64,000 nucleotides of DNA from Meiothermus cerbereus DSM 11376. Its GTDB lineage: Bacteria > Deinococcota > Deinococci > Deinococcales > Thermaceae. A model generated the notes under the pieces. The model saw only the letters and a program-made list of their open reading frames with translations, did not search any database and was not told the origin of the DNA. Shown here in pieces: positions 15,783-61,446 of this stretch. The position numbers and the translations under genes are program-made. The stretch spans positions 1 through 64,000 of the forward strand of contig NZ_JHVI01000008.1 of NCBI RefSeq assembly GCF_000620065.1, written 5' to 3'. Every line of letters begins with the position of its first letter. Within the stretch, counting starts at the first letter, position 1.

Positions 15783-15811
15783 TTGACACCCTCCTTGGGG
15801 TTCAGTAATGT
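15783..15811 (+). promoter_or_regulatory. Promoter of the binding-protein gene
   Basis: TTGACA at 15783-15788 is a perfect -35 box. With a 17-base spacer the -10 is TAATGT (15806-15811), which is weak; AGTAAT with a 15-base spacer is an alternative. A leader of about 35 bases with AAGGAGG follows. Confidence 0.55.
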
Positions 15812-15849
15812 TGAGGACAACGTTCAGATGCAACCGTAAGGAGGTTCCC

Positions 15850-16689
15850 ATGAAAAGAATTTGGATTTTGGGTTTGGTGGTGCTGGCCTCGCTAGGGATG
15901 GCCCAGAGCAAAATTGGCAACTGTGAGGTAACCGGCCCTAAAGGCCAGTTTCCCATCCGCCCGGCCATAGCGGGCCAGCTCACGGTGCAGACCAACCTGC
16001 CGGGGCCGGGTTTCTGGAACGGTGACAGCCCCGCCACCATCAAAGACGGCTTCGAGTACTGCCTGGCGGCCAACATTGCCCACCGCGCCGGGCTGGACAA
16101 AGTGGTGGTGCAGAATGTGGCCTGGGATGCCCTGATCGCCGGCCAGACCCGCAACTTCGACTTTGCCCTCTCGCAAATCACCATCACCGAGGCCCGCAAA
16201 AAGGTGGTGGACTTCTCGAGGCCCTATTTCTCCTCGGATATCGGCGTGCTGGTGCGTGCTGCCGATAAGGCCAAATATAACTCGCCAGCCAGCCTCAAGA
16301 CGGCGCGTCTGGGCATCCAACAGGCCACCACGGCCGCCAAGTTCCTGAGCGATACCCTCAAGCATCCCCAGAACCTGACCCGGGTCTTCCCCGATGTCGC
16401 ATCTGGCTTCACTGCCCTTCGGGCCGGACAGATAGATGCTTTCATCATAGATACCTCCATCGTGCTCTCGGAAGCGGCCAAGTCGGGTGGGGCTTTGGCT
16501 GTGGTGGGCCAGTTCAGAACCGGTGAGAACTACGGGGCGCTTTTTTCTAAGGGTAACCCCAACCGGGCCCAGGTAGACAAGATTTTGGAAGCGCTGGAAA
16601 AGGACGGTACCCTCAAAAAGCTTTCCCAGACCTACCTGGCCAAGGCATGGGGCATTGACCCCACCACCGTGCCGCTCTGGCAGCCCTAG
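15850..16689 (+). CDS. Periplasmic amino-acid binding protein (SBP family 3)
   Basis: The 279-residue protein begins with a signal peptide (MKRIWILGLVVLASLGMAQS). The mature part is a family 3 solute-binding protein: DGFEYCLAANIAHRAGLDKV, then RNFDFALSQITITEARKKVV with the DFSRPYF strand, then the IDAFIIDTSIVL hinge. Such proteins deliver polar amino acids to an ABC importer. The ATG at 15850 has AAGGAGG 5 bases upstream; an upstream in-frame ATG at 15808 overlaps the promoter and is unlikely. No permease or ATPase gene is adjacent. Confidence 0.9.
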   Translation: MKRIWILGLVVLASLGMAQSKIGNCEVTGPKGQFPIRPAIAGQLTVQTNLPGPGFWNGDSPATIKDGFEYCLAANIAHRAGLDKVVVQNVAWDALIAGQTRNFDFALSQITITEARKKVVDFSRPYFSSDIGVLVRAADKAKYNSPASLKTARLGIQQATTAAKFLSDTLKHPQNLTRVFPDVASGFTALRAGQIDAFIIDTSIVLSEAAKSGGALAVVGQFRTGENYGALFSKGNPNRAQVDKILEALEKDGTLKKLSQTYLAKAWGIDPTTVPLWQP

Positions 16690-56849: not shown

Positions 56850-56925
56850 GGACCGCTAGCTCAGTTGGTAGAGCAACCGACTTTTAATCGGTTGGTCACA
56901 GGTTCGAGTCCTGTGCGGTCCACCA
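56850..56925 (+). tRNA. trnK: tRNA-Lys (anticodon TTT)
   Basis: 76 nt with a full cloverleaf: acceptor GGACCGC/GCGGTCC, D arm with AGCTCAGTTGGTAGAGC, anticodon loop around TTT (GACTTTTAATC), T arm GGTTCGAGTC, discriminator A and an encoded CCA. Confidence 0.98.
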
Positions 56926-56929
56926 AAAG

Positions 56930-56951
56930 ACCCCCGGCGAAATCCGGGGGT
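56930..56951 (+). terminator. Terminator after tRNA-Lys
   Basis: 8-bp stem ACCCCCGG/CCGGGGGT with a 6-base loop, followed by TCGTCTTT. Confidence 0.65.
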
Positions 56952-56956
56952 TCGTC

Positions 56957-56985
56957 TTTACGAATGGGCGACCCTGTGCTACCCT
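56957..56985 (+). promoter_or_regulatory. Probable promoter of tRNA-Glu and tRNA-Val
   Basis: TTTACG and TACCCT with a 17-base spacer, 55 bases before tRNA-Glu. The boxes are imperfect; the presence of a terminator just before makes a promoter here likely. Confidence 0.45.
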
Positions 56986-57039
56986 TATGGACGGTCTAGT
57001 TTGTGGGCCCATTCCCACAGACCTAATAAAGGCTCCAGC

Positions 57040-57115
57040 GGCCCCATCGTCTAGTGGCCTAGGACGCCGCCCTCTCACGGCGGTAACAGGGGTTCGAATC
57101 CCCTTGGGGTCACCA
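57040..57115 (+). tRNA. trnE: tRNA-Glu (anticodon CTC)
   Basis: 76 nt: acceptor GGCCCCA/TGGGGTC, anticodon stem CCGCC/GGCGG around CTCTCAC (anticodon CTC), T arm GGTTCGAATC, discriminator A, encoded CCA. Confidence 0.97.
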
Positions 57116-57119
57116 AAAC

Positions 57120-57195
57120 GGGCGACTAACTCAGCTGGTAGAGTGCATCCCTTACAAGGATGAAGTCGGGGGTTCGAGTCCCTCGTCGCCCACCA
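57120..57195 (+). tRNA. trnV: tRNA-Val (anticodon TAC)
   Basis: 76 nt: acceptor GGGCGAC/GTCGCCC, anticodon stem CATCC/GGATG around CTTACAA (anticodon TAC), T arm GGTTCGAGTC, discriminator A, encoded CCA. It starts 4 bases after tRNA-Glu, so both are cut from one transcript. Confidence 0.98.
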
Positions 57196-59263: not shown

Positions 59264-60139
59264 ATGAAGCGACTCGCAACATGCATCGCCGGACTGTTGA
59301 GCCTGATGGCCTATGCCACGCCAGTTCTAAGCCCCCAGGGCATTATCGTCAACCCAATACCCACCGACCTCGAGGTGCAGACCTGGGTAGACCGCGACCC
59401 TTCGGGGTTGGGTAACTCGACCTACTTCTTTGGCGACAAAATCCAGATTTACACCCGCGTCAACCAGAGCGCTTATGTCTACTTGTTCAACATCAACGCC
59501 GATGGCCAGATTGATCTGATCCTGCCCAACGCCTTCAACCCCAACAACTATCTGCGGGCAGGGGAGACCCGGGTATTCCCCGAGAACGGGGCTCGCTACG
59601 AGTTCACCATCAGCGGGCCGGCGGGGGTAGATCAGGTGTTGGCGGTGGCCAGCCGGACTCCGCTCTCGCTCGCGCAGATTGCCGACATTCGCAGCGGGCA
59701 GATGCGGGTGCAGGGGGCCAGCAACCTGGCCAGGGCGCTCTCGATTGTGGTCACCCCACTGCCTGAGCGCGACTGGGTGAGCGATGTGGTGCGCTACAAC
59801 GTGCAGCCCCGCCTGTCCAGCAACCCCCAGCCACCGGTGGTAACGCCCAGGCCGCCCATCTTCTTCATCACCCCCATGCCAGGCTACTGGGTGGTATGGG
59901 AGGATCGTGAAGACACCGAGTACCGCGTGGCCTACCGGGGGGGCGATGTGGAGCAGATTTTCAGCTACTACCACCGCGACCTTATGTCCAAGGGCTGGGT
60001 CAGGGTGAACTTTAAGTCCAAAGGGGGTAAGAAGAACCAGGCCTATGAAGCCGAGTACCGCCGGGGAGGGGACAGGCTCGAGGTGAGCGTGGCCCCTCGA
60101 GGGGGCGAGCTGGTGGTCAAGCTGGAATGGGGTAGATAG
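59264..60139 (+). CDS. Secreted DUF4384 domain protein
   Basis: The 291-residue protein has a signal peptide (MKRLATCIAGLLSLMAYA). Residues 25-170 form a DUF4384-like beta domain (VNQSAYVYLFNINADGQIDL, then FPENGARYEFTISGPAGVDQ), described in proteins of the cell surface. The Pro-rich linker (NPQPPVVTPRPP) leads to a second beta domain (about 205-291). Function unknown; an envelope location is likely. Confidence 0.78.
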   Translation: MKRLATCIAGLLSLMAYATPVLSPQGIIVNPIPTDLEVQTWVDRDPSGLGNSTYFFGDKIQIYTRVNQSAYVYLFNINADGQIDLILPNAFNPNNYLRAGETRVFPENGARYEFTISGPAGVDQVLAVASRTPLSLAQIADIRSGQMRVQGASNLARALSIVVTPLPERDWVSDVVRYNVQPRLSSNPQPPVVTPRPPIFFITPMPGYWVVWEDREDTEYRVAYRGGDVEQIFSYYHRDLMSKGWVRVNFKSKGGKKNQAYEAEYRRGGDRLEVSVAPRGGELVVKLEWGR

Positions 60140-60157: not shown

Positions 60158-60186
60158 GCTCCCCGCTGGAGGCGCGGGGGGCTTTA
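60158..60186 (+). terminator. Terminator of the DUF4384 gene
   Basis: 9-bp stem GCTCCCCGC/GCGGGGGGC (one G-T pair), followed by TTTATAA. Its T tract overlaps the next promoter. Confidence 0.75.
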
Positions 60187-60190
60187 TAAT
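60185..60190 (+). promoter_or_regulatory. -10 box TATAAT of the Rieske gene leader
   Basis: A perfect TATAAT that ends 8 bases before the ATG of a 23-codon ORF at 60199. The -35 would fall in the terminator and is not seen. Confidence 0.55.
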
Positions 60191-60198
60191 TGGGGCAA

Positions 60199-60270
60199 AT
60201 GCACTCCTGGCCTGACACACACACCAAGCTCCTGCGTTTTGCCAGGGCCATTGTTGCCGCAGGCAAATAG
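60199..60270 (+). CDS. Leader peptide candidate, 23 residues
   Basis: It reads MHSWPDTHTKLLRFARAIVA and ends AGK, then TAG. The start is leaderless behind TATAAT. It is followed after 15 bases by a terminator-like hairpin, and the coding stretch contains the segments that could form alternative RNA pairings. It shows no run of one amino acid, which argues against simple amino-acid attenuation. Confidence 0.4.
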   Translation: MHSWPDTHTKLLRFARAIVAAGK

Positions 60271-60325
60271 CAGCATTTTTGTTTTCGTACAGTCGAACCC
60301 TGGCTGTACGGGTTTTGTTTTTTTT
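60206..60325 (+). promoter_or_regulatory. Attenuator-like leader of the Rieske oxygenase
   Basis: GCCAGG (60241-60246) can pair with CCTGGC (60206-60211) upstream, or, as GCCAGGG (60241-60247), with CCCTGGC (60298-60304) downstream. The second pairing takes in the loop and the first base of the right arm of a terminator hairpin CGTACAG/CTGTACG (60286-60310) followed by a T-rich run (60313-60325). TTGCC/GGCAA (60254-60266) is a further hairpin. The set fits a switch between terminator and antiterminator, ending 33 bases before the structural gene. Confidence 0.5.
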
Positions 60326-60357
60326 GGTCCTCACCCCCTGATGCCAAAGGAGTAAAC

Positions 60358-61446
60358 ATGAACAACCTCGAGGTTCACCCCGACATTGCCCAGGCCTCAA
60401 CCCTTCCAGCCCGTTTTTATCAGGATCCCCAGGTGTATGAAGCGGTAAAGGAGAAGGTTTTTGCCCAGAGCTGGCAGTGGGTGGGCGACACCGACGACCT
60501 CAAAGCCCCCGGCACGGTTAAGCCTTTTATCCTGCTGGAGGGCTGCCTGGACGAGCCATTGGTGCTTACCCGCGACCACGACGACCAGCTTCACCTTCTG
60601 TCCAACGTCTGCACCCACCGGGGCATGCTGGTGGCCGAGACCGGGGGCAGCGCCCGCTACCTGCGCTGCCGCTACCACGGGCGGCGATTTGCGCTGGATG
60701 GCTGCTTCCAGGCCATGCCGGAGTTCGAAGAGGTACAGGGCTTTCCCAGCCCCAGGGACGACCTGCCCAAAGTGGCTTTCGAGACCTGGGGCAAGGGCAA
60801 GTTTCTTTTAGCCAGCTTGAACCCCAGGGTTTCGCTGCAGGAGGTGCTGCGGCCTGTCCAGGAGCGGGTGGGCTGGATGCCCTTCGAGCAGTTTTACTTC
60901 GAGCCCTCCCGCGCCCGCGACTACCTGGTGCGGGCCAACTGGGCGCTTTACTGCGACAACTACCTCGAGGGCTTTCACATCCCCTATATCCACGCCTCAC
61001 TCAACACTGCCATCGACTACGGCAGTTATACCACCGAGGTGTATGACTGGTGCAACCTGCAGCTCGGCGTAGCTGCGCCGGGTGAGCCATGTTTCGACCT
61101 GCCCAAGGACTCTCCCGACTTTGGCCAGCGCATCGCGGCCTACTACTACTGGGTCTTCCCCAACCTGATGCTAAACTTCTACCCCTGGGGCCTCTCGGTC
61201 AATGTGGTGCGTCCGCTGGGACCCGAGCTCACCAAGGTCTCGTTTTTGCCCTATGTCTGGGATGCCAGCAAGCTGGATGCCGGTGCGGGCGCAGCCCTCG
61301 ACCGGGTGGAGCGCGAAGACGAAGTGGTCGTCGAGGCTGTGCAGAAGGGGGTCAGGTCCCGCTTTTACGACCGGGGGCGCTTCAGCGTCAGGCGGGAGCA
61401 GGGGGTGCACCATTTCCACCGACTACTGGCGCAGGCCTTGAAGTAG
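60358..61446 (+). CDS. Rieske non-heme iron oxygenase, alpha subunit type
   Basis: The 362-residue protein has a Rieske [2Fe-2S] site CTHRG (Cys87/His89) and CRYHGRRF (Cys/His), then a catalytic domain with the mononuclear iron site DNYLEGFHIPYIHASL (two His after the bridging Asp) and a later Asp ligand in the VEREDEVVVEAVQKGV region. It resembles choline monooxygenase and GbcA/carnitine-type alpha subunits rather than aromatic dioxygenases. No reductase or ferredoxin gene is adjacent. AAAGGAG precedes the ATG. Confidence 0.87.
   Translation: MNNLEVHPDIAQASTLPARFYQDPQVYEAVKEKVFAQSWQWVGDTDDLKAPGTVKPFILLEGCLDEPLVLTRDHDDQLHLLSNVCTHRGMLVAETGGSARYLRCRYHGRRFALDGCFQAMPEFEEVQGFPSPRDDLPKVAFETWGKGKFLLASLNPRVSLQEVLRPVQERVGWMPFEQFYFEPSRARDYLVRANWALYCDNYLEGFHIPYIHASLNTAIDYGSYTTEVYDWCNLQLGVAAPGEPCFDLPKDSPDFGQRIAAYYYWVFPNLMLNFYPWGLSVNVVRPLGPELTKVSFLPYVWDASKLDAGAGAALDRVEREDEVVVEAVQKGVRSRFYDRGRFSVRREQGVHHFHRLLAQALK

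Follow-up and report, generated by a model that had tools for sequence, protein, structure and literature searches.

What controls transcription of the Rieske non-heme iron oxygenase gene of Meiothermus cerbereus DSM 11376, and what part does the short ORF in front of it play? The window, i.e. the whole stretch of 64,000 nt analysed here (contig NZ_JHVI01000008.1, positions 1-64,000, forward strand), contains the presumed controlled gene at 60358-61446 (+ strand, 362 aa), identified by Pfam matches to Rieske (4.4e-14) and Ring_hydroxyl_A (3.3e-26). It is preceded by a Shine-Dalgarno sequence AGGAG (60348-60352, + strand) that is conserved among the leader-bearing loci. The leader ORF (60199-60270, + strand) consists of 23 codons and a TAG stop (ATG at 60199, TAG at 60268-60270) and encodes the peptide MHSWPDTHTKLLRFARAIVAAGK. 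Its C-terminal motif LRFARAI[VI]AAGK-stop (60232-60270, + strand), with residues invariant across 17 sequences, is the presumed ribosome-interacting part. A -10 box TATAAT (60185-60190, + strand) lies before the leader, with the consensus -35 element absent, and an intrinsic terminator (60284-60325, + strand) lies after it, with its stem at 60284-60294/60302-60312 and its T-run at 60313-60325, recognised by a consensus scan and by covariation. The upstream neighbour of the leader is a DUF4384 gene (59264-60139) with a GC-rich probable intrinsic terminator of its own, as judged from sequence (60158-60182, + strand, stem 60158-60166/60174-60182), the T-rich tail of which merges into the TATAAT of the leader promoter. 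Three consecutive tRNA genes are also found in the window, at 56850-57192 on the + strand.

On its own, the window sequence gives nothing above chance, since single-sequence folding of the leader is no better than that of shuffled sequences (z = -0.44), and four terminator-like sites are found in 3.2 kb where 3.0 are expected by chance. Leaders were found in relatives by reading upstream of each Rieske ortholog on its correct strand. Close orthologs of the Rieske gene (81-94% identity) occur in 21 further genomes from this family, with three others (70-76% identity) in another family of the same order. The leader ORF is found upstream of the Rieske gene in 18 genomes, 16 from Meiothermus and two from a sister genus, making a comparison set of the window plus 17 relatives (18 leaders, 17 distinct peptide sequences); seven Rieske orthologs have no leader. 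In the Rieske protein tree, in which several forks are unresolved, the presence of the leader needs two state changes. A search with a peptide profile finds the leader as a single copy per genome, directly before the Rieske ortholog in 18/18 cases, and gives no hit at any other place with a credible E-value among 111 Deinococcota genomes. A degenerate DNA pattern scanned across approximately 85,000 species genomes matches Meiothermus records only, and no leader motif was found by DNA pattern scan in viral contigs. Genes farther upstream vary by species, and upstream of the TATAAT many relatives have homologous GC-rich hairpins and others unrelated sequence, while the leader remains linked to the Rieske gene. 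By this comparison, the linkage of the leader to the Rieske gene is strict.

The initial annotation had described a leaderless 23-codon ORF and an intrinsic terminator before the Rieske gene, both of which are indeed found, and among relatives the conservation of the ORF as a peptide, of the -10 box and of the hairpin goes well beyond chance. It had also proposed regulation through translation of the short ORF, which gains support from the substitution pattern of the 17 distinct sequences: in the last 12 codons pN is 0.052 and pS is 0.597 (pN/pS 0.087), as befits a translated ORF. The N-terminal part is far less constrained (pN/pS 0.47), and the two other frames, taken as out-of-frame controls, give the reversed pattern. 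Leu12, Phe14, Ala15, Ile18, Ala21, Gly22, Lys23 and the position of the stop are invariant in the 17 distinct sequences, and the stop codon itself varies, with TAA, TAG and TGA all occurring. Conservation of the leader thus tracks codons and not bases. On the evidence of this substitution pattern, the leader ORF is truly translated and its C-terminus is under selection at the peptide level. Searches of NCBIfam and Pfam that allowed E values up to 10 gave no match, and no likeness of the peptide to a known arrest peptide family was found, which counts against an arrest mechanism.

Two leaders provide a natural test of which part of the leader matters. In L006 and L009 (genomes G020 and G012), a palindromic dispersed element of approximately 81 nt interrupts the N-terminal half of the leader ORF while keeping its frame, and the peptide is 54 aa long, with an insertion of 31 aa and the last 18 aa intact. 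The element is present in nine copies in G012, nine in G020, 16 in G006 and at least 40 in G015, with zero copies in the genome of the window.

Peptide conservation of this strength would also be expected of a small trans-acting protein, for example one that lies in the membrane or partners the oxygenase, in which case the hairpin would be the normal terminator of its gene and the Rieske gene would be expressed by leak-through. The net positive charge of the peptide, and an amphipathic moment above that of shuffled sequences in some members, are in keeping with such a role. However, amphipathicity is lost in half of the members tested, and an amphipathic membrane peptide was rejected as a candidate because the moment is not conserved among members. 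Furthermore, the conservation is C-terminal and anchored at the stop codon while the free N-terminus tolerates the 31-aa insertion, no copy of the leader was found apart from the Rieske gene in the genomes searched, and seven genomes carry the Rieske gene with no leader. We therefore consider a trans-acting protein unlikely. A leader peptide that is conserved in its last residues as far as the stop, and that lies in cis to a single gene, bears the signature of a nascent chain acting within the ribosome, as TnaC does (PMC8429421).

The position of the promoter bears on how the Rieske gene is reached. In leaderless genes of Deinococcus-Thermus, a TANNNT box precedes the start codon by a few bases (PMC12340547). 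All 16 Meiothermus leaders have TA[TG]AAT 5-8 nt ahead of their start codon and so share the TANNNT spacing of this group (16/16), and the two sister-genus leaders have TATGAT 11 nt before the leader start. The likeness to the Deinococcus-Thermus pattern is the TANNNT near the start; the difference is that here the 23-codon leader, and not the enzyme gene, appears to be leaderless. Where the leader is missing, it is the enzyme gene that follows the leaderless pattern, six of the seven orthologs having TANNNT 5-8 nt ahead of the Rieske start codon. At the leader-bearing loci no TANNNT is found at leaderless spacing before the Rieske ATG, and a Shine-Dalgarno sequence is found there instead. A second promoter before the Rieske gene was rejected on this ground, and TACAGT inside the hairpin was rejected as a promoter because it is absent from several species. 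Since the box sits before the leader, or before the Rieske start where the leader is absent, expression of the Rieske gene would be by readthrough, and the most economical view is that, where a leader is present, transcription through it appears to be the only way to reach the gene.

The hairpin after the leader is supported by covariation. Across the aligned leaders 84.8% of the cells of the stem are paired, 8/11 pairs are changed on both sides, and 0/500 shuffles equal this; in the consensus fold the terminator hairpin alone has clear covariation. Across species the loop ranges in length between 4 and 7 nt, so the hairpin acts as RNA and not as a DNA operator. A GTACAG...CTGTAC repeat was considered as an operator and rejected, as a change in loop length alters the spacing of its half-sites by 3 nt, and some of the pairs are G-U. 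The covarying hairpin is present in 16/18 leaders, followed by a strong T-rich tract in approximately 10 and by a weak U-tract in six; in the remaining two no clear hairpin is seen. The six weak-tract species have a longer stem followed by only a weak TTTGTT tract. In L017 and L018, both of the sister genus, the peptide is conserved and no clear hairpin follows the leader. The spacers of species with a weak or absent terminator, including those of L017 and L018, have much C and little G. For those two leaders, such a spacer could fit Rho-dependent termination.

Where the U-tract is weak or no clear hairpin follows, termination must depend on Rho, be weak or give way to another step, and this counts against the attenuation mechanism favoured below. 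Carried over to the leaders as a whole, Rho dependence becomes a control like that of TnaC, in which a ribosome at the stop codon would hide a site for Rho loading. The rho gene is present in the genome of the window, and the C-rich, G-poor spacers are found where such a control would call for them; against this, the hairpin and T-rich tract of the window and of nine other leaders would make Rho unnecessary, and we give Rho-dependent control a small chance. The same U-tracts, which fit transcription termination in 10/18 leaders, speak against translational attenuation, where a stalled ribosome would free the Rieske Shine-Dalgarno sequence from RNA just past the leader stop. C- or U-rich RNA past the stop can pair partly with the Shine-Dalgarno sequence in L007, L012, L016 and L003, but in most species pairing with the first 14 nt past the stop is near zero, so that for this mechanism the chance is slim.

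The initial annotation had drawn attention to mutually exclusive pairings of GCCAGG, either with CCTGGC upstream or with CCCTGGC in the terminator loop, and had proposed a switch between them or the binding of a small molecule. The complementary stretches exist in the window (CCTGGC at 60206-60211, GCCAGGG at 60241-60247 and CCCTGGC at 60298-60304), and part of the GCC/GGC complementarity recurs among leaders, but the pairings are not conserved among the 18 leaders. The upstream pairing is equal to its shuffles in this set. For the downstream pairing 75% of cells are paired, with weak covariation, outer pairs broken in many species and the loop shortened in four. GCC AGG is an Ala-Arg codon pair that is written GCT CGA in other species, and the alternative pairings are lost because such synonymous AGG to CGA changes and the shortened loops break them. 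Thus, covariation in the ortholog leaders, which the annotation had named as its own check, gives no support to the switch. The idea of a riboswitch fares no better, since no conserved aptamer-like structure is seen and an Rfam search of the leader gives no match at gathering level (best E 0.33, far below cut-off), placing the leader outside the Rfam riboswitches. The annotation was right that the peptide has no run of a repeated codon, while overlooking the peptide itself as the conserved element. With no codon run and no conserved alternative pairing, the leader is also set apart from attenuators of the trp/his type. Although the pairings are present in the window, a switch made of RNA only, whether riboswitch or alternative pairing, is largely refuted already by the missing covariation, the Rfam result and conservation by codon rather than by base, and is hardly credible. 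As judged by these comparisons, this is a conserved regulatory leader, the functional element of which is the peptide and not an alternative RNA pairing.

We lean, by a modest degree, towards a leader peptide acting in cis: by slowing, at the stop codon, the ribosome that makes it, the peptide would block folding of the terminator and so let the Rieske gene be transcribed. In this mechanism, transcription would begin at or beside the leader ATG, making the ORF leaderless, and most transcripts would stop at the hairpin terminator just beyond the leader stop codon, leaving the Rieske gene to be expressed by readthrough only. The motif LRFARAI[VI]AAGK would be selected for its behaviour inside the ribosome and, under a particular condition, would slow release at the stop codon. 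A ribosome held there, near the terminator, would hinder folding of the hairpin, and RNA polymerase would proceed into the Rieske gene; readthrough, stalling and terminator occlusion are the steps that we infer. No antiterminator would be needed, as a ribosome lingering at the leader stop could alone raise readthrough. In E. coli, a terminator less than approximately 27 nt from a stop codon can be repressed by the ribosome there, to an extent set by sequence (PMC4824070): terminator efficiency was approximately 0.12 at 17 bp in one series and, less favourably to this mechanism, already approximately 0.8 at 18 bp in the other. The leader stop codon of the window is followed after 15 nt by the core stem of the terminator. 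A special stop-to-hairpin spacing was rejected as an explanation, as ordinary Meiothermus genes also show terminators approximately 16 nt past the stop. Because the spacing is ordinary, the special feature would be a dwell time set by the peptide.

As for the condition that might be sensed, the closest solved structure to the Rieske protein is the oxygenase subunit of carnitine monooxygenase, a weak match (1.6e-24), and the protein lies far under every NCBIfam cut-off. In L069, L070, L071, L072, L073 and L080, the Rieske gene adjoins genes of an ABC transporter of the polar-amino-acid type, with adjacency taken from gene order and the families identified on one representative (L069). This set comprises genomes of both sister genera, two leader-less Meiothermus genomes and one more distant genome. 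In the genome of the window, the ortholog of the binding protein stands apart from the Rieske gene, at 15808-16689, and a different contig carries the permease. Together these comparisons suggest, without proving, that the substrate of the Rieske enzyme is an imported, zwitterionic, amino-acid-like compound, and our guess is that the inducer of the leader is this substrate or a related zwitterionic metabolite. The leader may thus point to the substrate of a conserved Rieske oxygenase.

The locus is also a case in which an enzyme gene whose own promoter is of the leaderless kind can acquire or lose a putatively leaderless regulatory ORF. To our knowledge, few metabolite-sensing arrest peptides are known, and a literature search found none for Deinococcota or for Rieske oxygenases. 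Thermus ribosomes are standard structural material, and Meiothermus is related to Thermus. The leader, being natural, short, strongly conserved and derived from a thermophile, could be tested and solved structurally.

Among known systems, control of pyrBI in E. coli depends on nucleotide-dependent pausing of polymerase and not on a conserved peptide. The Meiothermus leaders differ in conserving the peptide and not the U-rich stretch ahead of the hairpin. The likeness is that a ribosome near an intrinsic terminator blocks its folding with no antiterminator, as pyrBI is cited in PMC4824070 and PMC5021804. SpeFL, as cited within PMC8429421, is likewise a short leader, proposed to sense a metabolite (ornithine), that activates a metabolic gene (speF), but its peptide and the class of its gene are different. 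In TnaC, the 24-aa leader of tnaCAB in E. coli, a ribosome held at the stop codon keeps transcription from terminating (PMC8429421). Here too a short ORF with C-terminal peptide selection lies upstream of a metabolic gene, as in arrest leaders of the TnaC type, where the key residues lie toward the C-terminus (PMC8429421). A stall in which the last residue occupies the P site and a stop codon the A site, with readthrough as the output, is shared with TnaC only putatively (PMC8429421). TnaC uses W12, D16, P24 and Rho, and is unrelated in sequence to the Meiothermus leader, which has a leaderless start, any of the stop codons and usually a putative intrinsic hairpin as its terminator; it lacks the W12, D16 and final Pro of TnaC homologs proper, its final residue being Lys in all members. 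On sequence evidence, the leader would thus belong to a known class, the leader-peptide attenuators, as a member with a putative arrest step and a sequence of its own, unrelated to that of any known member.
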